Positions 97 through 11,023 of a stretch of 21,245 nucleotides of DNA are shown piece by piece. The notes under the pieces are model-generated. The model made no database searches. It was not told the DNA's origin and saw nothing but the letters and a program-made list of their open reading frames with translations. A program made the translations under genes and the position numbers. This stretch comes from a virus. Position 1 is the stretch's first letter. Every line of letters starts with the position of its first letter. The stretch lies in IMG/VR virus record IMGVR_UViG_3300031787_000976, positions 1 to 21,245 of that record. One strand, given 5' to 3'.

Positions 97-125
97 ATTC
101 TATACTATAGATTATCGGTTGTCAA
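97..125 (-). promoter_or_regulatory. Sigma70-type promoter for the MPNWC gene
   Basis: On the minus strand this is TTGACA (120-125), a 17-bp spacer containing CCGATAA, then TAGAAT (97-102). The TGA stop codon of the upstream gene (122-124) is inside the -35 hexamer. Confidence 0.75.
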
Positions 126-601
126 GCGGCTAAACTTTGCTTTTTTCTAGAATAAATTGTGGTCACAATATCTTGGTTTTCGGCATAGAATTTGCGTGTC
201 TTGATAGAAGATTTGATTTGGTCTTTTGGATACTTTTTAATATACTCATAAGCATCCCTAACATGATCTTTAGACCAAAATCGCTCAATTAGATCATGCG
301 TACTCACAGAAAATACCAAATCTACCAAACCACTTTTATCTACAACAATAAACAAAAAACGAATCTCTTTCTCCTCCCTGCTTAAATTATGATATTTGCT
401 AGGATCAAGCCATTGAAGATTAGCCTGTTTCTTACACTCTACTAAACATCCTAGCATATCATTTCTATAATCGTATAGTCTATGACTAGTTCTTTCCCAT
501 CCATCAACACTAGAAAGGATAGAAGATAAGATTCCCTCTTTACCACCATAGCCTTTGAGATTGGCTTGAGAGAGTTTACGAATTTGTGTCGCAGTGAGCA
601 T
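122..601 (-). CDS. Hypothetical protein, possible PD-(D/E)XK nuclease
   Basis: A 159-residue soluble protein read from ATG at 601. A TTG six bases upstream (607) would add two residues but has no support. Residues about 45-60 read RNDMLGCLVECKKQANLQW, an Asp followed by ECK on a predicted strand, which resembles the D...(D/E)xK core of restriction-like nucleases. A second hydrophobic strand, RFLFIVVDKSG, follows. No ribosome-binding site is visible: the -10 of the promoter at 608-635 ends exactly six bases before the ATG, so the mRNA may be leaderless. Its TGA stop is part of the next promoter. I do not recognise a named family; the nuclease reading is only a motif-level guess. Confidence 0.65.
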   Translation of the reverse strand: MLTATQIRKLSQANLKGYGGKEGILSSILSSVDGWERTSHRLYDYRNDMLGCLVECKKQANLQWLDPSKYHNLSREEKEIRFLFIVVDKSGLVDLVFSVSTHDLIERFWSKDHVRDAYEYIKKYPKDQIKSSIKTRKFYAENQDIVTTIYSRKKQSLAA

Positions 602-607
602 AGCCAA

Positions 608-635
608 AGTCTATACAAGCAAGAAATTTTGTCAA
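608..635 (-). promoter_or_regulatory. Sigma70-type promoter, leaderless geometry
   Basis: TTGACA at 630-635, 16-bp spacer, TAGACT at 608-613. Six bases separate the -10 from the ATG at 601, which places the expected transcription start on the A of the ATG. Confidence 0.55.
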
Positions 636-691
636 TCACTTTTCGCTGACTACACCCACGCCACCCAAATCCGAAGGATTAGCCGAGACAA

Positions 692-764
692 TGACCCCAC
701 GGGGATTCGAACCCCGGTAAACGGAACGAAAATCCGTTGTCCTAGGCCACTAGACGATGGGGCC
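692..764 (-). tRNA. tRNA-Glu (anticodon UUC)
   Basis: The minus strand folds into a full 73-nt cloverleaf. The acceptor stem pairs GGCCCCA with TGGGGTC (one G-U). The D-arm includes GTCTAGTGGCCTAGGAC. The anticodon stem ACGGA/TCCGT encloses loop TTTTCGT with anticodon TTC, and the T-arm is CGGGG-TTCGAAT-CCCCG. The discriminator is A, and no CCA is encoded. It begins four bases after the stop of the 51-residue ORF at 769-924 and is probably transcribed with it from the promoter at 931-958. Phage tRNAs commonly supplement codon usage of the phage genes. Confidence 0.93.
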
Positions 765-768
765 AAAT

Positions 769-924
769 TTATCTAACTCTCTCCACCCACACAAAATCTC
801 CATATTTTTCTTTGGCAAGAATCTGTGCTTGGTACTGAGAACTAGCCATAACATAACCAACAAGCGTATGGCTAAACCGAAAAACTTTCCAAGAATAGCC
901 AGAGTAGCAGAATGCAGTATTCAT
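769..924 (-). CDS. Small hypothetical protein (51 aa), leaderless
   Basis: A 51-codon reading frame starting MNTAFCYSGYSWKVFRF and ending FVWVERVR. It is too short for a default ORF screen but sits exactly between a very good promoter and the tRNA. The -10 TATAAT ends six bases before the ATG, so the predicted transcript begins on the start codon and has no Shine-Dalgarno sequence. The aromatic-rich, mixed composition looks like a small folded domain. I do not recognise the family. Confidence 0.6.
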   Translation of the reverse strand: MNTAFCYSGYSWKVFRFSHTLVGYVMASSQYQAQILAKEKYGDFVWVERVR

Positions 925-930
925 AAAATG

Positions 931-958
931 ATTATACTGTCTATTATCGGTGTGTCAA
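931..958 (-). promoter_or_regulatory. Strong sigma70-type promoter for small ORF and tRNA-Glu
   Basis: TTGACA at 953-958, 16-bp spacer with CACCGATAA, consensus TATAAT at 931-936. It lies immediately downstream (minus sense) of repeat copy E1. Confidence 0.8.
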
Positions 959-980
959 GAGACACTCTTTAAAATAGTTC

Positions 981-1041
981 TGGCACGATTTTTGCGGGCG
1001 CGGCCCTCGCCCTAAGTGCTGCCGTAGCAACAACTTAGGAT
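981..1041. repeat. Intergenic palindromic element, copy E1
   Basis: The 33-nt stem-loop is at 1009-1041: left arm GCCCTAAGT, 15-nt loop, right arm ACTTAGGAT. It is preceded on the plus strand by TGGCACGATTTTTGC (981-995) and a GC-rich GCGGGCGCGG run. It sits after the stop of the gene at 1077-1481 and before the next minus promoter. Confidence 0.8.
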
Positions 1042-1076
1042 TGAGGGTTTTGCGAAACTGCAACCTTTACTTTCTT

Positions 1077-1481
1077 TTAGAAAAGGTGTGCTACACCAGC
1101 CTTGAAGAGCGTAGTACCAAGCAGTGGACGACGACAGTTAGTAACACGTTCAGCATAAAAGTTACGCACAGTACCATCGGGACTCTCACCAGTGATAAGG
1201 TGGCGAGTACGCTTGAAGTTATCATCGTAACGTCGATAGTTGCTGGTTGCGTTGAGTTTACGAATCTGTTCGTCACTAAGAGTGTGAACATCAACAATCT
1301 TGACAAGGAAACGCTCTGGCTCACCCTTGTTAGGCTGGAGATAGTCAAAGTTGAAAACATCTCCAACATTAGCACACGACAGATTAGCATTCACTCCACG
1401 ATAAACGTGATACATAGCAAATGCGAGAAGACAACCCATAACAGCCACAGCAATCGAACCAAAAACAATCAAGTCGTTCAT
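1077..1481 (-). CDS. Membrane-anchored hypothetical protein (134 aa)
   Basis: Residues about 3-27 form one hydrophobic helix (FGSIAVAVMGCLLAFAMYHV), followed by a soluble domain of about 105 residues beginning VGDVFNFDYLQP and ending in an Arg-rich CRRPLLGTTLFKAGVAHLF tail. The soluble part is strand-rich and could be a small beta-barrel, but I do not recognise a family. The ATG follows AAAGG at good spacing, and promoter 1520-1548 drives it. Repeat E1 follows its stop. It is likely an inner-membrane protein with a cytoplasmic or periplasmic domain; orientation is unclear. Confidence 0.75.
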   Translation of the reverse strand: MNDLIVFGSIAVAVMGCLLAFAMYHVYRGVNANLSCANVGDVFNFDYLQPNKGEPERFLVKIVDVHTLSDEQIRKLNATSNYRRYDDNFKRTRHLITGESPDGTVRNFYAERVTNCRRPLLGTTLFKAGVAHLF

Positions 1482-1519
1482 AAGAACCTTTCTGTTAGTT
1501 AGAAACCCTCAATGTCACA

Positions 1520-1548
1520 AGTCTACACTACTTATCGTCAGTTGTCAA
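1520..1548 (-). promoter_or_regulatory. Sigma70-type promoter for the membrane-anchored gene
   Basis: TTGACA at 1543-1548, 17-bp spacer with GACGATAAG, TAGACT at 1520-1525. The TGA stop of the upstream gene (1545-1547) lies inside the -35. Confidence 0.7.
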
Positions 1549-1808
1549 GCGGCCACTTTAGAAAAGTTTTCTTGCCAATATTCTTGCATTTCTGCAAGGT
1601 TTACGCCGCTATCATTCCATGCCACCCCGTCCGGCGTTTCATATGCAATATGCATGTCCTCACAACCAGCACGAAGAGTAGACTTAAAACCTTCGTAATC
1701 TTTGCAACACGATGCAAGATCATTTAGACTCTCATCGTTGCTAATCCACAAACATACATTCCAAGTCTGATAGTTAGCGTATCCGTTATAGGTTCCGTCA
1801 GGACTCAT
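1545..1808 (-). CDS. DUF7249-like small phage protein (87 aa)
   Basis: The N-terminal part, YNGYANYQTWNVCLWISNDE, matches the well-known phage pattern YNGx(S/T)NxxTWxVxLWxxND of a widespread small protein family of unknown function (I believe DUF7249). The rest is acidic and helical. The ATG at 1808 follows GAAGAAGAGG. Promoter 1839-1866 precedes it. Its last codons GCC GCT TGA merge into the next promoter, as they also do in the gene at 122-601. Confidence 0.8.
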   Translation of the reverse strand: MSPDGTYNGYANYQTWNVCLWISNDESLNDLASCCKDYEGFKSTLRAGCEDMHIAYETPDGVAWNDSGVNLAEMQEYWQENFSKVAA

Positions 1809-1838
1809 CTTAGCACCTCTTCTTCTTGTGATACCCTA

Positions 1839-1866
1839 ATCATAGCATACTTATCGGCCAATGCAA
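1839..1866 (-). promoter_or_regulatory. Sigma70-type promoter for the DUF7249-like gene
   Basis: TTGCAT at 1861-1866, 16-bp spacer with GGCCGATAAG, TATGAT at 1839-1844. The -35 and spacer are nearly identical to those of the promoter at 3164-3191. Confidence 0.65.
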
Positions 1867-1888
1867 GAGGCGTTCTTGAAAAATAATT

Positions 1889-1971
1889 GCATGCCAAAAA
1901 AGAAAAAACTTTGGCACGATTTTTGCGGCCGCGGCCTCGTCGTAAGTCCTTATCCACCAACAACTTGCGAC
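1889..1971. repeat. Intergenic palindromic element, copy E2
   Basis: Stem-loop at 1939-1971 (GTCGTAAGT, 15-nt loop, ACTTGCGAC). Upstream on the plus strand are ATGCCAAA and TTTGGCAC arms facing each other, then TGGCACGATTTTTGC (1912-1926) and GCGGCCGCGG. The stop codon of the gene at 1950-2105 lies inside the loop. Confidence 0.82.
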
Positions 1972-2105
1972 AACTTTTTTTTGCTCTTTTTAGATTCGGT
2001 ATACAGTTTTTTTAAAAACTCCACATGTGCTACCGCACGATTGGTTTCCCTTTCCATGCGATCTAAAGCTTTTTGATATGGCGTTATACTTTTTTTCGTT
2101 TTCAT
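1950..2105 (-). CDS. Small basic hypothetical protein (51 aa)
   Basis: The frame opens MKTKKSITPYQKALDRMERE and ends KKSKKKLSQVVGG. It is Lys-rich and predicted almost wholly helical, so it could bind nucleic acid or a partner. It starts three bases after the stop of the gene at 2109-2402, consistent with translational coupling, and has no separate strong ribosome-binding site. The last nine residues are encoded by the right arm and loop of repeat E2, and the TAA is within the loop. Family not recognised. Confidence 0.55.
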   Translation of the reverse strand: MKTKKSITPYQKALDRMERETNRAVAHVEFLKKLYTESKKSKKKLSQVVGG

Positions 2106-2108
2106 AAA

Positions 2109-2402
2109 TCACTCAAAATCTACAAAGATCACTTGATTATATCCGCGAGGCTTGATGGTAAGCCCCGTATCGTAATCGTATGTATCGGCCTTTACTCCGG
2201 TCATACCCGCGAGAGCCTTGGCCTTTCGCACGATATTACGTTGAGACGCTTCGGAATGAATAGCAAACTCATAACGATTAGCCCAACTATAATTAGCCTC
2301 ACCACCGAAAGTATCAGTCTGTGTAACAACAACCTTCATCATCTTTTCCTTTTCTTGTGGAATATAAGCCCTAATCCAATCCTGCAAAGTCATTCCCGCC
2401 AT
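2109..2402 (-). CDS. Conserved small phage protein (97 aa)
   Basis: The core KVVVTQTDTFGGEANYSWANR, then ASQRNIVRKAKALAG and a C-terminal GYNQVIFVDFE, matches a recurrent phage protein pattern (DTFGGEANYxW) of unknown function. I place the start at the ATG at 2402, which overlaps the upstream TGA and lies six bases after a perfect GGAGG. A GTG one codon earlier is possible. It is the fourth gene of the unit that starts at the promoter 3164-3191. Confidence 0.75.
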   Translation of the reverse strand: MAGMTLQDWIRAYIPQEKEKMMKVVVTQTDTFGGEANYSWANRYEFAIHSEASQRNIVRKAKALAGMTGVKADTYDYDTGLTIKPRGYNQVIFVDFE

Positions 2403-2707
2403 CACTCACCTCCATAATAATCATCGTACATAGGGGTATCATCCCCATAGTATCCGTAGTCCTCATCAGTTCCCCACCCGCAAGATTCCATAGCCGAATC
2501 GTGGTCGCCATCCATGCTATCATCATAAAAATCATCCCAATCGTCCTCCAGTTCCTCATCATCCTTATCAAACTGAGACGCAATCTCATGATCCGCATCT
2601 GGGTGATAGTTGGAACTATCCTCATCGAAAAAAGCATTGTAATCGTCGTAGTTCATATCATCCTCGTAAGAGTTATCTGGATCGAACAGGGGATCGGGGT
2701 GACTCAT
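2402..2707 (-). CDS. Very acidic small protein (101 aa)
   Basis: The protein is dominated by Asp, Glu, Tyr, Ser and Gly with almost no basic residues, for example QFDKDDEELEDDWDDFYDD. It opens MSHPDPLFDPD, nearly the same as MSCPDPLYDYED of the gene at 5879-6046. Such composition suggests a disordered, DNA-mimic or metal-binding protein, but no family is recognised. The ATG follows AAAGGAATAAATAAT, and the 3' end carries the GGAGG site of the next gene. Confidence 0.7.
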   Translation of the reverse strand: MSHPDPLFDPDNSYEDDMNYDDYNAFFDEDSSNYHPDADHEIASQFDKDDEELEDDWDDFYDDSMDGDHDSAMESCGWGTDEDYGYYGDDTPMYDDYYGGE

Positions 2708-2712
2708 ATTAT

Positions 2713-2913
2713 TTATTCCTTTACTTTTTCGATGATAGGAGCCAGAAGTTGAGCGGTATGCTCTCCAATAACTTTAGGATTGAACAATACAAAAATGAAA
2801 AAAGTGATTACTCCAACAAACATCACACACCACAACGGAATGAAAATATATCGAAAGACCTTCCAAAAAGTATTTTCAAAACCAAAAGTATCATAATTAT
2901 GCTTACGTTTCAT
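2713..2913 (-). CDS. Single-pass membrane protein (66 aa)
   Basis: A basic N-terminus (MKRKHNYDTFGFENTFWKVFR) is followed by a strongly hydrophobic stretch at about residues 22-50 (YIFIPLWCVMFVGVITFFIF), then a short C-terminal tail ending KVKE. The positive-inside pattern puts the N-terminus in the cytoplasm. The ATG follows AAAAGGAGAATAG. Possible roles such as a holin or exclusion protein cannot be separated from sequence alone. Confidence 0.72.
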   Translation of the reverse strand: MKRKHNYDTFGFENTFWKVFRYIFIPLWCVMFVGVITFFIFVLFNPKVIGEHTAQLLAPIIEKVKE

Positions 2914-2925
2914 CTATTCTCCTTT

Positions 2926-3138
2926 TCAAGAAATATACCAAGAATTGCCTTCGTTGTCAACCATCAATTCCGCATGAGGATACATCTCATCGAAAACCTC
3001 ATCTGCAATGCCGACAACCTCTGCCCAATCCATCGGATGGCAGTCGCTCGCGTCAATCGGCTCGGCCATCGGTTCAATCGTACCCTCGTCGGCCAGTTGA
3101 GCAAGGATCATGTTCACCGTGTCGAGATCGTTCATCAT
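2926..3138 (-). CDS. Hypothetical acidic protein (70 aa)
   Basis: First gene of a five-gene unit. The longest frame extends to 3186, but that part overlaps the promoter. The ATG at 3138 has AAGGAG eight bases upstream and is the better start. The protein reads MMNDLDTVNMILAQLADEG and ends ELMVDNEGNSWYIS; it is acidic and mixed alpha/beta. The closing DNEGNxWY resembles the DENGNEW of the protein at 8384-8557, perhaps a small shared strand-turn motif. Function unknown. Confidence 0.68.
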   Translation of the reverse strand: MMNDLDTVNMILAQLADEGTIEPMAEPIDASDCHPMDWAEVVGIADEVFDEMYPHAELMVDNEGNSWYIS

Positions 3139-3163
3139 TGTCGTTTCTCCTTGTGATGCGTTC

Positions 3164-3191
3164 ATTCTACACTTATTATCGGCCAATGCAA
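3164..3191 (-). promoter_or_regulatory. Sigma70-type promoter for the five-gene unit 3138 to 1950
   Basis: TTGCAT at 3186-3191, 16-bp spacer with GGCCGATAAT, TAGAAT at 3164-3169. Confidence 0.7.
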
Positions 3192-3221
3192 GCGAAATCT
3201 TTTTAAAAAATAAAAAAATAA

Positions 3222-3320
3222 TCGCGTGCCAAACGAAGAAAAATTTTTGTATCAGACTTTGGCACCAAAAATGCGCCCGCCCGATTTGCTCTAAGTCCTT
3301 GTGGAGTAAGAACTTACAAC
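3222..3320. repeat. Intergenic palindromic element, copy E3
   Basis: Imperfect stem-loop at 3288-3320 (GCTCTAAGT, 15-nt loop, ACTTACAAC). It is preceded on the plus strand by GTGCCAAA, then TTTGGCACCAAAAATGC and GCGCCCGCCCG. It follows the stop of the lipoprotein gene at 3335. Confidence 0.75.
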
Positions 3321-3334
3321 AAATCCTTAGATTT

Positions 3335-3607
3335 TTATTCTAAGCATTTAGGGCAAACAAAATGACAACCTTTACAAGAAGCCATTTTAACAGGTTCATT
3401 ATTTTCATTGAGTGAAGTATATACCATTATTTTTTCAGGTAATTTATTTTCTTCCGTAGATACTGGTAGCGTGTCTAAATACTGTCCAAGAGGATATTCA
3501 ATATTGGTATGATTATTAACTGGCTTTGAACATCCCGAAACAAAAAATGTTACAACGCACCCAGCGATAAAACAAAAGGTCAGCAAAATCTTATCATTCC
3601 TGGTCAT
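3335..3607 (-). CDS. Lipoprotein with C-terminal cysteine cluster (90 aa)
   Basis: The N-terminus MTRNDKILLTFCFIAGCVV leads into a lipobox, VSGC, with Cys about residue 26, so signal peptidase II processing and lipid anchoring are expected. The mature part is polar and ends in CKGCHFVCPKCLE. This holds a CxxCH plus a second CxxC, which could be a small zinc ribbon or, since the protein is exported, a haem c attachment site. Its ATG overlaps the end of the small membrane ORF upstream by 14 nt. It is the last gene of a four-gene unit with two tiny membrane proteins. Function unknown; a lysis (outer spanin) or superinfection role is only a guess. Confidence 0.75.
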   Translation of the reverse strand: MTRNDKILLTFCFIAGCVVTFFVSGCSKPVNNHTNIEYPLGQYLDTLPVSTEENKLPEKIMVYTSLNENNEPVKMASCKGCHFVCPKCLE

Positions 3608-3710
3608 TTAAATCTTCCTTTACTGGAAAAACAAGATCACAAACAAACCAACTACACACAACACCAACAATAAATCCCACGCCTATACTTACCCAGTTAA
3701 TATCGACCAT
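3594..3710 (-). CDS. Tiny membrane protein (38 aa)
   Basis: Reads MVDINWVSIGVGFIVGVV then CSWFVCDLVFPVKEDLNDQE: one transmembrane helix and a short acidic tail. The ATG follows AAAGGGGCCAAGG, a clear ribosome-binding site, and the 3' end overlaps the lipoprotein start by 14 nt. Size and placement next to a lipoprotein gene resemble small lysis or regulatory membrane peptides, but there is no diagnostic motif. Confidence 0.6.
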   Translation of the reverse strand: MVDINWVSIGVGFIVGVVCSWFVCDLVFPVKEDLNDQE

Positions 3711-3731
3711 CCTTGGCCCCTTTCTTTAATT

Positions 3732-3884
3732 TTATTCCCTAATAAACTTTCCCAACTTTTTAAGATCCTCGGCCCTTACTTGTTTCTGCCAAGTTTCATT
3801 AGCCTCATGAGCAATATCCAAAATGGCCATGATAAAACCACCAAGAATAATAGTAAAAAATCCGACCATAATCACTACCATCAT
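3732..3884 (-). CDS. Small membrane protein (50 aa)
   Basis: Reads MMVVIMVGFFTIILGGFIMA followed by a charged amphipathic tail ending KKLGKFIRE. There is one N-terminal transmembrane helix and a roughly 28-residue helical tail. The first ATG overlaps the upstream TGA as ATGA, so translation is probably coupled to the gene at 3881-4192. It has a holin-like size but no family match that I recognise. Confidence 0.6.
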   Translation of the reverse strand: MMVVIMVGFFTIILGGFIMAILDIAHEANETWQKQVRAEDLKKLGKFIRE

Positions 3885-4192
3885 GCTTGCACCACCATAC
3901 CTTCCATAAAGGGATATTCCTTACCATTCAATTTTACAAACCATTCATATTTACGCTGATACACGCGAACGGGGCTATACTGGTTAATTCTATCCTTCGT
4001 GGTACTGGTTTGCCAACCCCCCGTTTGAAGGGTTACAGTATCATCGGGGTGAATCTGTACAACATAGGTGCTATGAAGCAAAATCCCTACGCTACCATCG
4101 TGAAGGATTTCCGCATAGGTATTATTACCAATCTTTCGGCTATCCTTATTACGCTTGCCCCTAACCATTGTAACCGCTTCGGCGTGATTCAT
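3881..4192 (-). CDS. Conserved phage hypothetical protein (103 aa)
   Basis: The pattern RKIGNNTYAEILHDGSVGI, LHSTYVVQI, DTVTLQTGGWQTSTTKDRIN and a C-terminal WFVKLNGKEYPF is a recurrent architecture in small phage proteins: a beta-rich domain with a GGWxTxTTKxRIN signature. No biochemical function is known to me. It is the first gene of the unit that includes two tiny membrane proteins and the lipoprotein. Start ATG at 4192, after a long purine-rich leader. Confidence 0.78.
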   Translation of the reverse strand: MNHAEAVTMVRGKRNKDSRKIGNNTYAEILHDGSVGILLHSTYVVQIHPDDTVTLQTGGWQTSTTKDRINQYSPVRVYQRKYEWFVKLNGKEYPFMEGMVVQA

Positions 4193-4226
4193 TTTCTTTC
4201 TCTCTTGTGATACCCTTTATATCGTA

Positions 4227-4254
4227 ATTCTACGCTCTAAACTTTACTTGTCAA
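4227..4254 (-). promoter_or_regulatory. Sigma70-type promoter for the membrane/lipoprotein unit
   Basis: TTGACA at 4249-4254, 16-bp spacer AGTAAAGTTTAGAGCG, TAGAAT at 4227-4232, followed by TACGATATAA. The TGA stop of the 49-residue ORF upstream (4251-4253) lies inside the -35. Confidence 0.72.
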
Positions 4255-4400
4255 TCCCAAAACTTCGGATGGTATGTTTTTAGTAGGTTTTGGTCGATTC
4301 CTGTTTTTTTTGACGCTAGAATCTTAGCCTGTTGCCGATTCAATCCAGAAAAAGAGCCAACAAACCGACCATCCACTGTCCAAAAGTTAAAACTTCTCAT
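4251..4400 (-). CDS. Small hypothetical protein (49 aa)
   Basis: Reads MRSFNFWTVDGRFVGSFSGL, then NRQQAKILASKKTGIDQNLL and ends KTYHPKFWD. The short strand-turn-strand followed by a helix could be a small compact fold. The ATG follows AAGGGAAAAAG, and the gene is 12 bases downstream of the stop of 4413-4622. Its TGA stop is within the next promoter's -35. Not recognised. Confidence 0.6.
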   Translation of the reverse strand: MRSFNFWTVDGRFVGSFSGLNRQQAKILASKKTGIDQNLLKTYHPKFWD

Positions 4401-4412
4401 TTTCTTTTTCCC

Positions 4413-4622
4413 TTAGTAATACAAACCCTTATGAATATTTCCGTGCCAGTTTACTTTGTTTGAAATATAGAACATAGTATCATTCGCATACAATTCTAAA
4501 GCGTATCCCTTTTCTGTGTAGAAAGATCGTGCATCCTCGAAGTTATCAAAGATATAGCAACGCTCCATGTTAACTGGAGGAAATGAATCATCCTCTATTA
4601 CGAATACATACTTGGTTTTCAC
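4413..4622 (-). CDS. Hypothetical protein (69 aa), GTG start
   Basis: Reads from GTG at 4622, after AAGGAAA at good spacing. It begins with a strand KYVFVIEDD, then RCYIFDNFEDARSFYTEKGY, an alpha/beta pattern. The wording resembles the FDNxEDAxxF segments found in small phage proteins, and the neighbour at 4956-5147 has a comparable FFDNLKEVEVFVKSEEY segment, so these may be distant relatives. Function unknown. Confidence 0.68.
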   Translation of the reverse strand: MKTKYVFVIEDDSFPPVNMERCYIFDNFEDARSFYTEKGYALELYANDTMFYISNKVNWHGNIHKGLYY

Positions 4623-4642
4623 GATATGGTTTCCTTAGTGGG

Positions 4643-4897
4643 TTAGTTAAGCAAGTTAATGCAAAGTTCTTTGTATTCTCGGTATAGATGCTCTTCATTG
4701 TCGCAAGAACATATAATCTCACGACACGCAACATCATCACTGCGAAGCACAACCCTAATATAGTATTCGTATCTTTCGTCAGGGATTTTATCGTCGCCAA
4801 TCTTGTAGGTGGATAGATCGCAAACGTGTTCTATCTTTTTGGTAATGTATAAGATATGATTCTTGTTGAAGATTTTGCCACAAATACTCACAAACAT
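4643..4897 (-). CDS. Hypothetical protein (84 aa)
   Basis: First gene of a three-gene unit (4897 to 4251). Reads MFVSICGKIFNKNHILYITK, with a central YEYYIRVVLRSDDVACREII and a C-terminal helix HLYREYKELCINLLN. The start resembles small beta-sandwich proteins that open with a strand, a turn and Ixxxxxxxxh...V. It contains five cysteines without a clear zinc pattern. The ATG follows AAGGGAGAAAG. Not recognised. Confidence 0.7.
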   Translation of the reverse strand: MFVSICGKIFNKNHILYITKKIEHVCDLSTYKIGDDKIPDERYEYYIRVVLRSDDVACREIICSCDNEEHLYREYKELCINLLN

Positions 4898-4930
4898 TTT
4901 CTTTCTCCCTTGGATACTATTCTTATCGGT

Positions 4931-4959
4931 ATTCTACACTCTAAACTTTAGTTTGTCAA
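4931..4959 (-). promoter_or_regulatory. Sigma70-type promoter for the 4897 to 4251 unit
   Basis: TTGACA at 4954-4959, 17-bp spacer AACTAAAGTTTAGAGTG, TAGAAT at 4931-4936, then ACCGATAAG. The TGA stop of the upstream gene (4956-4958) is inside the -35. Confidence 0.75.
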
Positions 4960-5147
4960 CCTTGCATTGCAGCGATTATGTATTCCTCGCTTTTTACGAA
5001 AACCTCAACCTCTTTCAGATTGTCAAAAAATCGAATGAAAATTGGATATTCGGGACCAACAATCACTTTCCATTGTGACCACGAATAGAACTTCGGAAGA
5101 AGTTTGTAGCCAAGTTTGTTCAGTCTCTTTTCAAGGTTCTTTTTCAT
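4956..5147 (-). CDS. Hypothetical protein (63 aa)
   Basis: I use the ATG at 5147. A TTG at 5153 would add two residues. The leader GAGAGTTGATAATG is shared with the gene at 8630-8764. The protein begins MKKNLEKRLNKLGYKLLPKF and continues IFIRFFDNLKEVEVFVKSEE, an alpha/beta fold with a basic N-terminal helix. Its stop is buried in the next promoter. Function unknown. Confidence 0.68.
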   Translation of the reverse strand: MKKNLEKRLNKLGYKLLPKFYSWSQWKVIVGPEYPIFIRFFDNLKEVEVFVKSEEYIIAAMQG

Positions 5148-5175
5148 TATCAACTCTCTTTTCTCTTATATCGAC

Positions 5176-5204
5176 ATTCTACCGTGCAAACTTTAGTTCG
5201 TCAA
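5176..5204 (-). promoter_or_regulatory. Sigma70-type promoter for 4956-5147
   Basis: TTGACG at 5199-5204, 17-bp spacer starting AACTAAAG, TAGAAT at 5176-5181, followed by GTCGATATAAG. Confidence 0.7.
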
Positions 5205-5223
5205 GAAAAAAATAGAAAAATAA

Positions 5224-5311
5224 TCGCGTACCAAATAAGAAATATTTTTTTGGCACGATTTTCGCGCCCGCCGCCCGCGTCGTAAGTCCTTGTCCCATCA
5301 CAACTTAGGAC
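5224..5311. repeat. Intergenic palindromic element, copy E4
   Basis: Stem-loop at 5279-5311 (GTCGTAAGT, 15-nt loop, ACTTAGGAC). It is preceded by GTACCAAA and TTTGGCAC arms, TGGCACGATTTTCGC (5251-5265) and GCGCCCGCCGCCCGC. The TGA of the gene at 5298-5474 falls inside the loop. Confidence 0.8.
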
Positions 5312-5474
5312 AAGTTTCGGCTACTGTATTAGTGTACAGTGAATAAAAATCGTCAAGAGGTATATCTTCGTACACTAGCACACCCTGAACATATAAACAG
5401 TATAGTGTACTGTTATTCAGTGATACTGTCCACACCACCTTGCGGTTATCGTTCGTCCAATTTTTCGGATTCAT
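5298..5474 (-). CDS. Small hypothetical protein (58 aa) ending in repeat E4
   Basis: Reads MNPKNWTNDNRKVVWTVSLN, then LYCLYVQGVLVYEDIPLDDF and ends VAETCPKL. It starts two bases after the stop of 5477-5809, with GAGGAC as the likely ribosome-binding site, so it is coupled to that gene. The last codons, including CCT AAG TTG TGA, are the right arm and loop of repeat E4. This is the same arrangement as the gene at 1950-2105. Family not recognised. Confidence 0.55.
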   Translation of the reverse strand: MNPKNWTNDNRKVVWTVSLNNSTLYCLYVQGVLVYEDIPLDDFYSLYTNTVAETCPKL

Positions 5475-5476
5475 TT

Positions 5477-5809
5477 TCAGTCCTCAAAAGCAAACGGGGA
5501 AACTTCTTCACCACAAGCGAGAATCGCACCATATTGCGACATCAGAGCCTCAACACGCTCGCTACTTCCGGGCTTGCCCACTTTCACGATCATAGTATCA
5601 TCACCACCATTATAGCGAGGATCAACTTTTTCGATCTTACGCTTGCCGATATTACGGAGAGCCTTACGATTGAACTTCAAAATCTTTTCGCTACGAATAG
5701 GTCCGTATTCACCATTAGCCAGGCTAGGTTGACAAGGAATCGCAATTCCAAGAAAGCACATACGAGCCTGACGCTTTGCATCTTCGATGATCTTGAACTT
5801 AGTAGCCAT
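5477..5809 (-). CDS. Hypothetical protein (110 aa)
   Basis: Reads MATKFKIIEDAKRQARMCFL and includes a basic helix NRKALRNIGKRKIEKVDPRY and a C-terminal GKPGSSERVEALMSQYGAIL. The balance of basic helices and short strands would suit a nucleic-acid or partner-binding protein, but I do not recognise it. The ATG follows AGGAGAAATAG at nine bases. Promoter 5835-5863 precedes it. Confidence 0.72.
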   Translation of the reverse strand: MATKFKIIEDAKRQARMCFLGIAIPCQPSLANGEYGPIRSEKILKFNRKALRNIGKRKIEKVDPRYNGGDDTMIVKVGKPGSSERVEALMSQYGAILACGEEVSPFAFED

Positions 5810-5834
5810 TTTCTATTTCTCCTGTGTTGCTTGG

Positions 5835-5863
5835 ATTCTAGGAAAGTTTTTTTGGATCGTCAA
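5835..5863 (-). promoter_or_regulatory. Sigma70-type promoter for 5477-5809
   Basis: TTGACG at 5858-5863, 17-bp spacer, TAGAAT at 5835-5840. It has no CGATA box. A small ACCCC/GGGGT hairpin lies between it and the stop of 5879-6046. Confidence 0.68.
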
Positions 5864-5878
5864 CCCCTCTTATGGGGG

Positions 5879-6046
5879 TCACCATCCATTTCTACGATAT
5901 TCTTCACGCAAGGCTTCTTCTTCCTCACGTTGGCTAAGGGTAACGGCTGGGCCATACCCCATCAGATAAGCATCCTTAGCAGCATCATAGCCATCATCGG
6001 AATCCTCAAAATCTTCGTAGTCATAAAGGGGGTCAGGGCAACTCAT
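5879..6046 (-). CDS. Small acidic protein (55 aa) with MSxPDPL opening
   Basis: Reads MSCPDPLYDYEDFEDSDDGY, then DAAKDAYLMGYGPAVTLSQR and a charged helix EEEEALREEYRRNGW. It is too short for default screens, but it has a clear AAAAGGAGAAAG ribosome-binding site and its own promoter (6085-6112). The opening is shared with the 101-residue acidic protein at 2402-2707 (MSHPDPLFD), suggesting a common origin or a shared N-terminal recognition tag. Function unknown. Confidence 0.65.
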   Translation of the reverse strand: MSCPDPLYDYEDFEDSDDGYDAAKDAYLMGYGPAVTLSQREEEEALREEYRRNGW

Positions 6047-6084
6047 TTTCTTTCTCCTTTTCTCTTTCTTTCTCTTATATCGAC

Positions 6085-6112
6085 ATTATACAGACCGTTC
6101 TTTAGGTTGCAA
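6085..6112 (-). promoter_or_regulatory. Sigma70-type promoter for 5879-6046
   Basis: TTGCAA at 6107-6112, 16-bp spacer starting CCTAAAG, TATAAT at 6085-6090, then GTCGATATAAG. Confidence 0.7.
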
Positions 6113-6206
6113 GCAAAAAATCCAGATTTTTATGTCAAGAGATTTTGACAAAACTTTAGGCTTTTTTGATGCTTTTCGGCACTCCGTATGCTATAAAGCA
6201 AATATT

Positions 6207-6255
6207 GTGCCAAAACTGATTAGTCGTAACCTCTTGTTTCTCAATGGTTTACGTC
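6207..6255. repeat. Intergenic palindromic element, copy E5a
   Basis: GTGCCAAA then a degenerate 33-nt stem-loop at 6223-6255 (GTCGTAACC, 15-nt loop, GTTTACGTC). It is followed by AAAAAATGCGCCCGC, and is the left member of a tandem pair with E5b. Confidence 0.72.
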
Positions 6256-6276
6256 AAAAAATGCGCCCGCAAATTT

Positions 6277-6309
6277 GTCCTAAGTCCTTATCTCACAAAG
6301 GTTTACGAC
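6277..6309. repeat. Intergenic palindromic element, copy E5b
   Basis: Stem-loop GTCCTAAGT, 15-nt loop, GTTTACGAC. It begins 21 bases after E5a ends, the only tandem pair seen. The TGA stop of the HAD-like gene (6310-6312) abuts its right edge. Confidence 0.75.
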
Positions 6310-6741
6310 TCAAACTTGGAACGCTTTTACCCAGTTTACCGATTTTGCATATTCTACGTTATTAGTATCATCATCGTAGAAGTGTACAGTTTGCTTATAT
6401 ACTCTAGTTATACTATCTAGGATAATCTGTTTCTTTTGAGCAGTAGGTATATTCTTACCAAAATCCCCAGCGGTAATAATCTGGCTATTTGGGATATACA
6501 ACCCATTCTGCATAAAATACTTCTTCAATGCTTTTCGCATTTCTCCATTCTTTCCACCAGCACGAGCAGTTAGAATATATACCTTCTTATACCTAGTTAG
6601 CCTATTCTTTGTAAGCGTTGTAGGTTTAGCAGAAAGAATATCAGGAACAGCAATCTCAGGATTGATAAACTGGCTAAGGCTAGCAGTTTCCTTACCTTGG
6701 GTTATTCCAGTTGTCATATCAAAATCAAAAATACCGATCAT
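6310..6741 (-). CDS. HAD-like phosphatase (143 aa)
   Basis: Motif I of the haloacid dehalogenase superfamily is visible near residues 4-10 as IFDFDMT (DxDxT-like, with the nucleophile at the first Asp and Met before Thr). Motif II is YILTARAGG at about 55-63. A late acidic motif HFYDDDTNNVEYAK at about 119-132 fits motif IV, which holds magnesium. The length fits a minimal cap-less HAD such as phage nucleotidases or the 3'-phosphatase domain of polynucleotide kinases. The substrate is not evident. It is transcribed with the 47-residue gene upstream. Confidence 0.82.
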   Translation of the reverse strand: MIGIFDFDMTTGITQGKETASLSQFINPEIAVPDILSAKPTTLTKNRLTRYKKVYILTARAGGKNGEMRKALKKYFMQNGLYIPNSQIITAGDFGKNIPTAQKKQIILDSITRVYKQTVHFYDDDTNNVEYAKSVNWVKAFQV

Positions 6742-6754
6742 TTTATCTTTCTCT

Positions 6755-6898
6755 CTAATTATACTTCATACGAACCATCATCTCAACCACAGTCGGACGA
6801 GTCATGATGCAATTCCACATATACCAGTTGGCAAAGTTCAGCCACCCCTCACGGGTGATCTGTCCGGTCTGAAACATCTTCCACATCATCTCGTACAT
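6755..6898 (-). CDS. Small hypothetical phage protein (47 aa)
   Basis: Reads MYEMMWKMFQTGQITREGWL, then NFANWYMWNCIMTRPTVVEM. The TGxITRExW pattern in a roughly 50-residue helical protein recurs in phages, with no known function. The ATG follows AAGGAGAGAACG, and promoter 6926-6953 precedes it. The HAD-like gene starts 13 bases after its stop. Confidence 0.65.
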   Translation of the reverse strand: MYEMMWKMFQTGQITREGWLNFANWYMWNCIMTRPTVVEMMVRMKYN

Positions 6899-6925
6899 CG
6901 TTCTCTCCTTGCTTCTTATATCGAT

Positions 6926-6953
6926 ATTCTACAGAGAAATCTTTAGAAAACAA
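6926..6953 (-). promoter_or_regulatory. Sigma70-type promoter for 6898 and the HAD-like gene
   Basis: TTGTTT at 6948-6953, 16-bp spacer TCTAAAGATTTCTCTG, TAGAAT at 6926-6931, then ATCGATATAAG. Upstream lies an A-tract block ending ACATTTGTTCAGTA, shared with promoters at 8582 and 8804 and possibly an UP element. Confidence 0.62.
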
Positions 6954-6998
6954 TACTGAACAAATGTTTTTTTGGATTTTTTTTGGATAGCAAATATC

Positions 6999-7090
6999 GT
7001 GCCAAAGGCTTCTATCTAGCTGGATTAGCTGTAACTCCTTACGTCGCAACAACTTACGACAAAAAAGCGCCCGCGATTTTCGTGCCAAAT
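6999..7090. repeat. Intergenic palindromic element, copy E6 (both outer arms)
   Basis: GTGCCAAA (6999-7006), stem-loop at 7028-7060 (GCTGTAACT, 15-nt loop, ACTTACGAC), then AAAAAAGCGCCCGC and ATTTTCGTGCCAAAT. This copy shows the GC block and GTGCCAAA arm to the right of the stem. It abuts the TAA of the gene at 7093. Confidence 0.8.
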
Positions 7091-7092
7091 AT

Positions 7093-7275
7093 TTAGAGAG
7101 AACGAAAACGTCCGCCATTCCTCAATCCCTCAATCAACCTATCGTATTCATTCGTGGTGAAAATAGGATAGTATCCATCCCTTTCGCTCACGATCCATTT
7201 GCGAGAGTATCCATCCCACACGCTAGCGACAACAAGACCGAGAGCATTTGCAAGATTCACGATTTCTTGATTCAT
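7093..7275 (-). CDS. Hypothetical protein (60 aa)
   Basis: Reads MNQEIVNLANALGLVVASVW, then a strand-rich centre SRKWIVSERDGYYPIFTTNE and a C-terminal helix YDRLIEGLRNGGRFRSL. It looks like a compact alpha-beta-alpha domain. The ATG follows AAAAGGAAAAAG and promoter 7306-7333. Not recognised. Confidence 0.68.
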   Translation of the reverse strand: MNQEIVNLANALGLVVASVWDGYSRKWIVSERDGYYPIFTTNEYDRLIEGLRNGGRFRSL

Positions 7276-7305
7276 TTCTTTTTCCTTTTCTCTTGAGATA
7301 TTCTT

Positions 7306-7333
7306 ATTCTACAAATATCATCGATATATTCAA
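7306..7333 (-). promoter_or_regulatory. Sigma70-type promoter for 7093-7275
   Basis: TTGAAT at 7328-7333, 16-bp spacer with ATCGATGA, TAGAAT at 7306-7311. Confidence 0.6.
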
Positions 7334-7356
7334 GAGCATGCTTGAAATATAATTTC

Positions 7357-7426
7357 GTGCCAAACTAGATAAAATTTTTGCGCCCGCGAATTCGCCCTAA
7401 GTCATTGTGCCACAACAACTTAGAAC
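7357..7426. repeat. Intergenic palindromic element, copy E7
   Basis: GTGCCAAA, then TTTTTGCGCCCGC, then stem-loop 7394-7426 (GCCCTAAGT, 15-nt loop with TTGTGCCACAACA, ACTTAGAAC). Both GC block and outer arm are to the left. Confidence 0.78.
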
Positions 7427-7460
7427 GAATACGTCTTTTTCCAGTATGCACACCCCCCAT

Positions 7461-7673
7461 TTAGGTGGCGTGAATGAACACCTTTTCACTTACTGTACGA
7501 TTGGTCACCGTCACGATCCAATTCCTACCGCTACCATCCTCACGCATAATCGCGTTGATGATACCGATATGGGCGTTTCCCTTAGTATCAATAACCGTGC
7601 CATACTTACCCGTTCGCATAGCAGAAAAAATCTTGTCAAGGCTATTCACTACAGGCTTATTCATGGTAATCAT
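7461..7673 (-). CDS. Hypothetical protein (70 aa)
   Basis: Reads MITMNKPVVNSLDKIFSAMR, then TGKYGTVIDTKGNAHIGIIN and ends VTVTNRTVSEKVFIHAT. It is a beta-rich small domain. The proteins at 7741 and 7949 have comparable size and similar promoters, so the three may form a set of small early proteins. ATG at 7673, with a purine-rich leader and no strong Shine-Dalgarno; an in-frame ATG three codons later is possible. Confidence 0.66.
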   Translation of the reverse strand: MITMNKPVVNSLDKIFSAMRTGKYGTVIDTKGNAHIGIINAIMREDGSGRNWIVTVTNRTVSEKVFIHAT

Positions 7674-7709
7674 TTTCTTTTTCTCTTTTCTTCTTTCTTC
7701 TTTCTCTTG

Positions 7710-7738
7710 ATTCTATCAAATATTTTTTAGGTTGTCAA
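7710..7738 (-). promoter_or_regulatory. Sigma70-type promoter for 7461-7673
   Basis: TTGACA at 7733-7738, 17-bp spacer ACCTAAAAAATATTTGA, TAGAAT at 7710-7715. Confidence 0.75.
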
Positions 7739-7740
7739 TA

Positions 7741-7890
7741 CTAGAGAATCGTACCATCGCCACGGATGCGATACATGATGCCACCGATACTATACAGAAC
7801 AATACCTTCGCCAAGATGCTGCACAAATGTTGCCGAATAACCATGACGAGCAACTAGGCGACGAATGGTATTTTGAACTTGAATGGTCAT
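7741..7890 (-). CDS. Small hypothetical protein (49 aa)
   Basis: Reads MTIQVQNTIRRLVARHGYSA, then TFVQHLGEGIVLYSIGGIMY and ends RIRGDGTIL. A helix followed by a beta hairpin is likely. The ATG follows AAAAGGAAAACAA. It has its own promoter (7913-7940), and its TAG stop lies three bases before the next -35. Not recognised. Confidence 0.62.
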   Translation of the reverse strand: MTIQVQNTIRRLVARHGYSATFVQHLGEGIVLYSIGGIMYRIRGDGTIL

Positions 7891-7912
7891 TTGTTTTCCT
7901 TTTCTTTGCCTT

Positions 7913-7940
7913 ATTTTATCAATATTTTTTTGGTTGTCAA
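7913..7940 (-). promoter_or_regulatory. Sigma70-type promoter for 7741-7890
   Basis: TTGACA at 7935-7940, 16-bp spacer ACCAAAAAAATATTGA, TAAAAT at 7913-7918. It is nearly a copy of the promoter at 7710-7738. Confidence 0.72.
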
Positions 7941-7948
7941 CCCCCTTA

Positions 7949-8170
7949 TCAGCGGATCGTAATCAAACCCTTGAAGTGCGAAAATGTCAGGGTAAGCACT
8001 TTTCCAGGATACTTGTTGTTGATATACGTTTGAGCAGTGCTCTTGCGATTATCGGTAGCACTCACATACTGAACAACCGTACCATTCGCATCAGAAACTT
8101 TCCAAATCTTCTTTTGGACGATTCGCGGAAGACCAGCAAGGAAACCATTCACACTCACAACCTTTTGCAT
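7949..8170 (-). CDS. Hypothetical protein (73 aa)
   Basis: I use ATG 8170, after AGAGAGTGATAGAG. A GTG at 8179 would add three residues. The protein reads MQKVVSVNGFLAGLPRIVQK, then VSDANGTVVQYVSATDNRKS and ends TLTFSHFKGLITIR. It is basic and beta-rich. Promoter 8212-8239 precedes it. Not recognised. Confidence 0.66.
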   Translation of the reverse strand: MQKVVSVNGFLAGLPRIVQKKIWKVSDANGTVVQYVSATDNRKSTAQTYINNKYPGKVLTLTFSHFKGLITIR

Positions 8171-8211
8171 CTCTATCACTCTCTTTCTTTCTTCTCTCTT
8201 ACTCTGCCATC

Positions 8212-8239
8212 ATTATACAGTATTTATCGGCCATATCAA
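8212..8239 (-). promoter_or_regulatory. Sigma70-type promoter for 7949-8170
   Basis: TTGATA at 8234-8239, 16-bp spacer with GGCCGATAAA, TATAAT at 8212-8217. Confidence 0.7.
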
Positions 8240-8273
8240 TAGGCTTTCTTGAAAAAATCAGAAAAATAATTCT

Positions 8274-8383
8274 GTGCCAAATGAGAAGAAAAATAAAATC
8301 GTCGTAAGTCTATATGCCACAACAACTTACAGCAAAAAAGCGGCCGCAAAATCTGTGCCAATTATTTTTGGCACAACAATTGC
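8274..8383. repeat. Intergenic palindromic element, copy E8, with divergent -24/-12-like motifs
   Basis: GTGCCAA (8274-8280), stem-loop at 8301-8333 (GTCGTAAGT, 15-nt loop, ACTTACAGC), AAAAAAGCGGCCGC, then TGTGCCAATTATTTTTGGCACA, an inverted repeat. A minus-strand TGGCACAGATTTTGC (8346-8360) and a plus-strand TGGCACAACAATTGC (8369-8383) point away from each other. It abuts the TAA of the gene at 8384. Confidence 0.8.
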
Positions 8384-8557
8384 TTAGGCAAAATCTTCCT
8401 CGCCTTGGAAATCATCGAGCCACTCATCATCCGTTTCCGGATAATCGTCAGCATCACCCATGATCGGATCCCATTCCCCATCATCGTATCCGGGGATATA
8501 GTCGGCCTCATCCCCCACCATCCACTCATTGCCATTTTCGTCGATCATCTTTTCCAT
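8384..8557 (-). CDS. Small acidic protein (57 aa)
   Basis: The longest frame extends to 8620, but that part is promoter sequence. ATG 8557 has AAGAGGAGAAAAAAG upstream. It reads MEKMIDENGNEWMVGDEADY, followed by a very acidic tail ending DDEWLDDFQGEEDFA. The composition is like the acidic proteins at 2402-2707 and 5879-6046. DENGNEW resembles DNEGNSW in the protein at 2926-3138. A DNA-mimic or regulator role is possible but unproven. Confidence 0.68.
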   Translation of the reverse strand: MEKMIDENGNEWMVGDEADYIPGYDDGEWDPIMGDADDYPETDDEWLDDFQGEEDFA

Positions 8558-8581
8558 CTTTTTTCTCCTCTTGATTATCCT

Positions 8582-8610
8582 AGTATATATATCGGTTTTT
8601 ATTCTGTCAA
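8582..8610 (-). promoter_or_regulatory. Sigma70-type promoter for 8384-8557
   Basis: TTGACA at 8605-8610, 17-bp spacer with AACCGATATA, TATACT at 8582-8587. It is preceded by the A-tract block with ACATTTGTTCAGTA. Confidence 0.65.
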
Positions 8611-8629
8611 TACTGAACAAATGTTTTTT

Positions 8630-8764
8630 TCAGATCATTCTCTGAAAGTGTCTAACCTTCAGAGGATCTTGGGTAATCTTCCCTTTCTGGATAAGGTAGA
8701 TAACCTTGCCATTCTTAACCATAGCAGTGGTATTCTTGGTAATCTGAATCATCGTAAACATCAT
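8630..8764 (-). CDS. Small basic hypothetical protein (44 aa)
   Basis: Reads MMFTMIQITKNTTAMVKNGK, then VIYLIQKGKITQDPLKVRHF and ends QRMI. A beta hairpin plus a basic tail is likely. The leader GAGAGTTGATGATG matches that of 4956-5147. Its TGA is followed by the A-tract that leads into promoter 8582-8610. Not recognised. Confidence 0.58.
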   Translation of the reverse strand: MMFTMIQITKNTTAMVKNGKVIYLIQKGKITQDPLKVRHFQRMI

Positions 8765-8803
8765 CAACTCTCTCTTTCTTTCTCTCTTACTTCTTATATC
8801 GAC

Positions 8804-8831
8804 ATTATACAGGAAAATCTTTAGGCGTCAA
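8804..8831 (-). promoter_or_regulatory. Sigma70-type promoter for 8630-8764
   Basis: TTGACG at 8826-8831, 16-bp spacer CCTAAAGATTTTCCTG, TATAAT at 8804-8809, then GTCGATATAAG. Confidence 0.7.
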
Positions 8832-8877: not shown

Positions 8878-8966
8878 ATGCCAATATTCAACAACATTCT
8901 TCTTGTCGATTCTACGATTCGTCGCAACTCCTTACGTCACAACAGTTTACGTCAAAAAAGCGGGGG
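8878..8966. repeat. Intergenic palindromic element, copy E9 (rightmost)
   Basis: CATGCCAA, then stem-loop at 8921-8953 (GTCGCAACT, 15-nt loop, GTTTACGTC) and AAAAAAGCGGGGGC. It is the last copy; none is seen in the remaining 12 kb. It lies in the gene-free interval 8765-9098. Confidence 0.75.
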
Positions 8967-9098: not shown

Positions 9099-10301
9099 TT
9101 ATACCCATCTTCTAATACTACTAGAACCTAGTAGTTTCATGCTGCCAGTTTCTGTATTTATAGCATAGACTCTCATAATATTCCAGCCCCTCTGAAACAT
9201 ATATCTATTCAATCTAATATCAAACCCATGATTTCCACTACCCAAAGAAGCTACTAGATCCTGCCTATATACATTTGCCCATCTCAACGCTACTACCCGA
9301 TTATTTACAACCACCCGTATTAGCATTGGTTTATTCATCAACGTAGAGCTATATGCCCACCCATACACTCTATTGATATTCATAATCCCCGCACGACCAC
9401 TTATCACTTCTTGAGTCACAGGAGGATTAACAACAGGGGGAGTAGCAGACCAGCTTTCTTTTAAATATCCGCCGGTTGATACTTTATTAGTTAGAGACTC
9501 TGTTCTTATAACCTCAGACAAAAGAGCAAACTTACGCTCCACAACACTACCAGATAATGTACTTATTTTTCCAGCAACCATAGGAGCCGCCATACTAGTA
9601 CCACTCAATGTAGCATATCGACCCCCAGGCCACGTTGAATATATGAGAGTACCTCTAGCAGCTATTTGTACAGTATTAATCCCATAATTAGATGACCCCG
9701 CTAATATATATTCTGGGGTAACAGAAGCCACATTAATCATATTATCTAACTTGAAGCTGGCAGGATAGTTAGGATTAATATCCAAATCGGCTCCATTATT
9801 TCCGGCCGCACATACAATCACAATCCCAATATCATTCATTGTAACAAACTTATCCCTAACTACTGATGATCCATATGACCCCAAACTCCAGCTACAATTT
9901 ATAGTATCAATATCTTCTCCTCTATTCCTTAGTTGAATAATATAATCAAGACCCCGAAGCATAGCACTAGTACTTCCAGCCCCACCATCACTAATCATTT
10001 TTACGGCCACAATTCTCACACCAGGATTAATCCCCTGCACAATCCCAGCTATATGTGTTCCATGGCCATAAACATCCATGACATTATTATTATTACTAAT
10101 AAAATTCCATCCATGTATATCGTCTATATAACCATTGTTATCATCATCAATATTATTATTTTTAATTTCCCTAGAGTTAACCCACAAATTATCTATTAAA
10201 TCAGGATGATTAATATCAATCCCTGAATCTAATATAGCTACTGATAATACGTGTCTACTCTCTAATCTTTCTACGTTTAAGAATCCATTCTTTTTTTTCA
10301 T
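9099..10301 (-). CDS. Subtilisin-family (S8) serine protease with LEPR-XLL-like N-terminus
   Basis: A 400-residue peptidase S8. The catalytic triad is clear: Asp in VAILDSGIDINHPDL (about residue 24), His in YGHGTHIAG (about 82) and Ser in LSGTSMAAPMVAG (about 235), with the oxyanion Asn in CAAGNNGAD. Residues 1-20 read MKKKNGFLNVERLESRHVLS, like the LExRxLLS segment at the start of many planctomycete exported proteins. Here it runs straight into the catalytic domain, with no propeptide and no obvious signal peptide. After a Pro-rich linker (PPVVNPPVTQ) comes a C-terminal beta domain of about 100 residues with GWAYSS, YRQDLVASLGSGNHGFDI and MRVYAINTETG, a pattern I associate with bacterial carbohydrate-active or surface proteins. 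It has its own promoter and lies outside the early array, so it is probably an accessory (moron) gene. Confidence 0.9.
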   Translation of the reverse strand: MKKKNGFLNVERLESRHVLSVAILDSGIDINHPDLIDNLWVNSREIKNNNIDDDNNGYIDDIHGWNFISNNNNVMDVYGHGTHIAGIVQGINPGVRIVAVKMISDGGAGSTSAMLRGLDYIIQLRNRGEDIDTINCSWSLGSYGSSVVRDKFVTMNDIGIVIVCAAGNNGADLDINPNYPASFKLDNMINVASVTPEYILAGSSNYGINTVQIAARGTLIYSTWPGGRYATLSGTSMAAPMVAGKISTLSGSVVERKFALLSEVIRTESLTNKVSTGGYLKESWSATPPVVNPPVTQEVISGRAGIMNINRVYGWAYSSTLMNKPMLIRVVVNNRVVALRWANVYRQDLVASLGSGNHGFDIRLNRYMFQRGWNIMRVYAINTETGSMKLLGSSSIRRWV

Positions 10302-10709: not shown

Positions 10710-10940
10710 TTAGCCAATTTCCCCAAGGGTTTCTACTGTTGGTAACTTTGGATTCTTGCTTGGACGACCCCTTGGTTTCTTTAGTGCTAGCTTGCGTCGT
10801 TGGCGACGAACCATAGCGGTGCTAATAGTTTGACCAGTCATTTGACTTAACTTGACCGCTAATACCTCGTCGGGCATAGAATTGTGGTTATTCTTAATAA
10901 AATCCACTTCCGAATCATTCCACTTTTTATAGGTTGCCAT
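10710..10940 (-). CDS. Small HTH-like DNA-binding protein with AT-hook motif (76 aa)
   Basis: I choose ATG 10940, with AAGGA eight bases upstream. The longer frame to 11003 begins in the control region. Residues about 5-50 (KKWNDSEVDFIKNN through DEVLAVKLSQMTG and TAMVRRQRRKLAL) look like a Myb/SANT or homeodomain-like HTH with a basic recognition helix. This is followed by KKPRGRPSKNPK, which carries the RGRP core of an AT-hook. It sits divergently next to the structural operon, so it may regulate the 10941-11023 region. The family assignment is by pattern only. Confidence 0.72.
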   Translation of the reverse strand: MATYKKWNDSEVDFIKNNHNSMPDEVLAVKLSQMTGQTISTAMVRRQRRKLALKKPRGRPSKNPKLPTVETLGEIG

Positions 10941-11023
10941 AATTAATCCTTCTGTAAAGTTGACTAAAAGTGTAACTAACAGTATTATAGTATTAGTTGA
11001 CAAGTTTTGCGCAAGGAGAAAAA
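10941..11023. promoter_or_regulatory. Divergent control region with plus-strand promoter
   Basis: On the plus strand TTGACT (10960-10965), 17-bp spacer, TATTAT (10983-10988), then GCAAGGAG as the ribosome-binding site of the gene at 11024. A minus-strand TATAAT (10984-10989) overlaps the plus -10, but no matching -35 is clear. AAGTTGACTAA and TAGTTGACAAG are related sites that could bind a regulator. Confidence 0.6.

Follow-up and report, generated by a model that had tools for sequence, protein, structure and literature searches.

A CGATAA/CGATAT box in phage early promoters is probably half of a sigma28-type promoter interleaved with a sigma70 promoter

The window analysed here comprises the 21,245 nucleotides (nt) of the viral record IMGVR_UViG_3300031787_000976 in IMG/VR, and the region under study, positions 97-8831 on the minus strand, holds an array of early phage genes with sigma70-type promoters. 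A sequence-only reading of this DNA had reported the box CGATAA or CGATAT (CGATAW) in 13 of 18 minus-strand sigma70-type promoters, placed either in the spacer or shortly after the -10 element. We find the box at all 13 of these promoters; the sigma70-type promoters at 7913, 7710, 5835 and 608 are devoid of it. On the minus strand of the region, the density of CGATAW is 6.06 per kilobase (kb) in intergenic and 0.78 per kb in coding sequence, an approximately eightfold difference, with the two parts divided by a hand-chosen gene set. The 14 intergenic occurrences compare with a mean of 1.4 and a maximum of 8 in 1000 shuffles, and the box is thus in excess over both shuffled and coding sequence.

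Here, we observe that the box has a regular partner. In 12 out of 13 sites, covering both classes, a T(A/C)AAG-like element is located 22 or 23 nt upstream, where the distance is counted from the first base of this element to the C of CGATAW. The only box without such a partner is the CGATAT at 8589-8594 in the spacer of the promoter at 8582-8610. When the sites are aligned on the box, they fall into two registers relative to the sigma70 hexamers. Register 1, with the box in the spacer, comprises the minus-strand sites at 8224-8252 (TCAAGAAA ... GCCGATAA, distance 23, sigma70 promoter 8212-8239), 3176-3203 (AAAAGATT ... GCCGATAA, 22, 3164-3191), 1851-1879 (TCAAGAAC ... GCCGATAA, 23, 1839-1866), 1532-1560 (TAAAGTGG ... 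GACGATAA, 23, 1520-1548), 944-971 (TAAAGAGT ... ACCGATAA, 22, 931-958 with perfect hexamers) and 112-139 (CAAAGTTT ... ACCGATAA, 22, 97-125). Register 2, with a distance of 22 throughout, comprises those at 8796-8823 (TAAAGATT ... GTCGATAT, sigma70 promoter 8804-8831), 6918-6945 (TAAAGATT ... ATCGATAT, 6926-6953 with a weak -35), 6077-6104 (TAAAGAAC ... GTCGATAT, 6085-6112), 5168-5195 (TAAAGTTT ... GTCGATAT, 5176-5204), 4923-4950 (TAAAGTTT ... ACCGATAA, 4931-4959) and 4219-4246 (TAAAGTTT ... TACGATAT, 4227-4254). Partners in register 2 read TAAAG; those in register 1 read TAAAG, CAAAG, AAAAG or TCAAG. CTAAAG or GTAAAG, which the sequence-only reading noted in the second class, is not peculiar to that class: an AAAG-type or TCAAG partner accompanies the boxes of both classes.

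Two further minus-strand matches deserve separate mention. The sigma70-like promoter at 7306-7333 was overlooked by the sequence-only reading and carries a weak register 1 site at 7318-7345 (TCAAG ... ATCGATGA), in which TCAAG at 7345 precedes a degenerate box, CGATGA at 7323, by 22 nt; this site was recognised by eye and scores below the matrix threshold. The match at 3705 (3700-3728, TAAAGAAA ... GTCGATAT, distance 23) scores high and spans a gene start, where ATGGTCGATATT encodes M V D I. Its function as a promoter is doubtful, and it may reflect coding constraint only.

Relative to the box, the sigma70 -10 element is mostly found at -8 in register 2 or at +12 in register 1, and the sigma70 -35 element at -31/-30 or at -11 to -9, respectively. 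The two positions seen by the sequence-only reading are therefore two ways to interleave a sigma70 promoter with one bipartite element. The resulting order is TAAAG-TTGACA-GCCGATAA-TATAAT in register 1 and TTGACA-TAAAG-TATAAT-GTCGATAT in register 2, with all four elements within approximately 40 base pairs (bp). That a shared element occurs at two alternative positions in most early promoters was seen correctly and holds across the phage family, whose members are large and aquatic.

The pair reads T(A/C)AAG ... G(C/T)CGATAW (TAAA-N16/17-GCCGATAW), as do the -35 and -10 elements of promoters served by the flagellar sigma28 factors FliA, SigD and WhiG. We call the sites sigma28-type by sequence likeness, and their spacing is not the one known from Escherichia coli. 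The -35 motif, TAAAG or TCAAG, is present in the 12 window sites, emerges from unbiased enrichment in relatives and is matched by a matrix of E. coli FliA sites. Register 1 boxes show the sigma28 -10 element GCCGATAA/T, 70% of them having G at -2 and 48% C at -1, and both GCCGATA and GTCGATA are enriched upstream of early-strand genes. The variants tolerated here (TCAAG and TTAAG; GTCGATA, GACGATA and ACCGATA) are also the ones that E. coli FliA sites tolerate.

Two IMG/VR scans for relatives yielded 157 loci. Among these, the unique contexts with TAAAG ahead of CGATAW number 78 at a distance of 22 nt and 68 at 23 nt, compared to 0-11 at other distances; after dereplication, 36 and 35 sites remain, all of them on the early strand. 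The partner also emerges when boxes are chosen without regard to it. In 189 dereplicated boxes selected only for TTGACA at -12 to -8, AAAG is found at -23 in 31 and at -22 in 19, whereas other positions give 0-5; YCAAG occurs at -23 in 16 and at -22 in 8. In 85 boxes selected only for TANNNT at -8, AAAG stands at -22/-23 in 27 and 9. A weight matrix built exclusively from 25 E. coli FliA sites determined by chromatin immunoprecipitation sequencing (PMC4183435) peaks at spacings 22 and 23 in both register classes. Applied to five phage genomes, it gives 52 and 46 matches on early strands versus 1 and 1 on late strands, while 50 kb of T4 show no peak. A matrix trained without the window, at a threshold of at least 14 bits, returns 13 sites on the minus strand of the window (including 3705, over a gene start and possibly coding), none on the plus strand and a mean of 0.17 in shuffles.

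Sigma70 promoters show the same restriction to the early strand. At the strictest threshold, TTGACA-N16/18-TATAAT gives 22-48 promoters on the early strands of four larger genomes versus 3-8 in shuffles; late strands stay at shuffle level. Of the 93 matches to the pair at 22/23 in five genomes, 40 belong to register 1, 15 to register 2 and 35 to neither register, and 3 are weak. With 25 of these 35 being intergenic, the bipartite element probably occurs also on its own, with no sigma70 promoter interleaved, although chance will account for part of the 35.

Dozens of relatives carry the pair, with identities of the terminase TerL as low as 53%; no relatives were found by megablast against named phages. 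More distant phage contigs are co-binned in a SAR202 metagenome-assembled genome (MAG) with a contig of 53% TerL identity, and nearly all of their early promoters are in register 1, with the four elements near consensus. Besides the terminase contig, at least two contigs of this MAG (152.7 and 64 kb) are full of such composite promoters, and they are likely phage sequence binned into a bacterial genome. Pattern-only scans of viral contigs led back to the same family: 22 out of 28 tested records carry this TerL, and the remaining six are without a match to it.

From sequence, geometry, restriction to the early strand and conservation across the family, our preferred explanation, with moderate confidence, is that each box represents the -10 half of a sigma28-type promoter and that this promoter is interleaved with a near-consensus sigma70 promoter serving the same gene of the early array. 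The recurring CGATAW would then probably belong to a second promoter, as one of its halves, and not be a repressor site. Transcription from the pair would be started by RNA polymerase with a sigma factor of flagellar type, most likely that of the host, and the early genes would be accessible to the polymerase with either sigma70 or the flagellar sigma bound, e.g., in motile cells. On one copy of the DNA, the two holoenzymes would be mutually exclusive. The host factor is the likeliest reader, because transcription of early genes has to begin before any phage protein is made and because no phage protein reaches the FliA/WhiG cut-off.

Several observations weigh against a sigma28-type promoter read by the host. 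The spacing is 22 and 23, with almost none at 21 and no peak there, versus the distance of 21 (TAAA-N15-GCCGATAA) in E. coli FliA promoters. In Clostridioides difficile SigD promoters, 15-18 nt span from TAAA to CG, which corresponds to distances of 19-22 (PMC3865298); this wider range takes in 22 but not 23, and it may not be the range of the host. Furthermore, the composite architecture is seemingly confined to the one terminase family and could equally suit a reader encoded by the phage.

Such a reader would be a phage sigma factor, which we consider unlikely. The candidates are two sigma-like proteins: gpA, encoded at 11142-11804 on the plus strand, with sigma70 region 2 only, and gpB, encoded in another part of the genome, of approximately 160-220 amino acids, with regions 2 and 4 and a conserved gene neighbourhood. 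Either protein, or both acting as a split sigma, would read the pair, and the early genes would be read again later in infection. Region 2 (gpA) is matched in 21 out of 21 tested records and region 4 (gpB) in 19 out of 21; on the FliA/WhiG model, gpA aligns approximately with positions 4-75 and gpB with 115-222, and gpB-like proteins are present also in the distant phages that keep the motif. The family-specific architecture would fit as well. However, the cut-off of FliA_WhiG (TIGR02479) is reached in none of 30 phage records, with partial matches of gpB and gpA only. A region 4 with which to recognise a -35 is not evident in gpA. The recognition helix of gpB, TREAVRQ, resembles that of a primary sigma70 rather than of FliA, and it is replaced by CGETIRI in a distant phage whose motif is unchanged. 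gpB is therefore less likely as reader. No FlgM was found in the phages. A more natural target for a phage sigma is a separate motif, TTAGGTGTATATTA (core AGGTGTAT), which is enriched upstream of structural-strand genes in five genomes and is a candidate late promoter; raw genome-wide counts of GGTGTAT do not exceed the reversed control, and the motif stands out only near gene starts.

It was suggested by the sequence-only reading that the box is one operator at two positions. The shared element and its two positions stand, while the operator itself fits less well. In its extended form, a DNA-binding protein of phage or host would contact both halves of the pair and repress or activate the sigma70 promoters from either position. 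The pair indeed nearly always accompanies near-consensus sigma70 promoters, and the -10 lies at -8 in one register and at +12 in the other, a shift of approximately 20 bp or some two helical turns. A suitable protein might be encoded at 10710-10961 on the minus strand (10710-10940 in the sequence-only reading, which put it forward for a binding assay), where the early array starts and next to a divergent promoter region; this small DNA-binding-like protein shows a weak AT-hook match and is conserved in five closer genomes, with 39-65% in four other family genomes. No match to it was found in the distant phages keeping the motif, the sequence of which is, however, incomplete. Moreover, T(A/C)AAG and GCCGATAW are unlike in either orientation and form neither a palindrome nor a repeat, contrary to the symmetric or repeated half-sites at fixed spacing of a dimeric repressor operator. 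The spacing varies by 1 bp, as it does in promoters; both halves and their variants coincide with FliA promoter elements; and sites without an interleaved sigma70 promoter occur. An operator therefore appears improbable. That the elements only assist one sigma70 promoter, through upstream or spacer contacts or through DNA shape, and have no second reader is very unlikely: they do nearly always accompany near-consensus hexamers, but their position relative to the hexamers differs between the registers and they sometimes occur without them.

The usual view is that the primary sigma factor of the host reads the early genes of phages. In T4 middle promoters, a MotA box replaces the -35 at one position. 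The phage family described here likewise adds an extra element to the promoters of a whole gene class, but it leaves both sigma70 hexamers in place, and the added element has two parts. No description of sigma28-type promoters from the early regions of phages was found in the open-access literature searched, which is no proof of novelty. With E. coli FliA promoters (PMC4183435), the phage sites share TAAAG or TCAAG as -35, GCCGATAA as -10, the tolerated variants and the asymmetric bipartite layout; they differ in their distance of 22-23 instead of 21, in their location in a phage early region and in being interleaved with sigma70 promoters at many genes. The SigD sites of Firmicutes (Bacillus subtilis, C. 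difficile; PMC3865298) likewise read TAAA ... CCGATAW with distances up to 22, e.g., at C. difficile fliC, but the phage distance of 23 lies outside the reported range and SigD sites serve host genes. A precedent for double control is given by the complex flagellar promoters of E. coli (fliA, fliL and fliD operons), where one gene group is under both sigma70-dependent and FliA promoters (PMC4183435), as would be the case here. There, FlhDC activates the sigma70 promoter, whereas in the phages the hexamers lie close to consensus, and the sigma28-type pair is interleaved with them on the DNA itself, in two fixed registers.

More tentatively, it is possible that this phage family, by interleaving the two promoters at many early genes, has opened its early region to two host holoenzymes, with sigma70 and with flagellar sigma, and has thereby tied infection to the motility state of the cell or freed it from it. 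If so, the four-element early promoter would link infection to motility. It would also give a clue to the host, which would be flagellated and possess a flagellar sigma that accepts spacings of 22-23.

Other features were considered as pointers to the host. Co-binned MAGs were rejected, since the alphaproteobacterial, Flavobacteriales and SAR202 bins are mutually inconsistent. Phage-encoded S8 subtilases are found at 9099-10301 on the minus strand of the window and in two other loci, and an N-terminal motif (NVERLESRHVLS, IENLENRSLLT) is found in three phages. This motif resembles the planctomycete sorting signal, which is a hint at planctomycete hosts but no proof of them. Plasmid relatives gave no decision on the host.

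Ahead of promoter clusters, the minus strand of the window also carries ten copies of an intergenic repeat with the consensus GTCGTAAGTTGTTGTGACATAAGGACTTACGACGAA, located at 8906-8952, 8289-8337, 7383-7427, 7022-7068, 6262-6308, 6216-6258, 5272-5318, 3278-3322, 1934-1982 and 1004-1048. The consensus folds into a short stem in which four pairs change on both sides, but with a covariation term that is not favourable. Behind several of the copies lie another hairpin (GTGCCAAA/TTTGGCAC) and a T-rich sequence, which together perhaps form a terminator. Inside the early gene array, a tRNA-Glu(TTC) gene is located at 691-765 on the minus strand.

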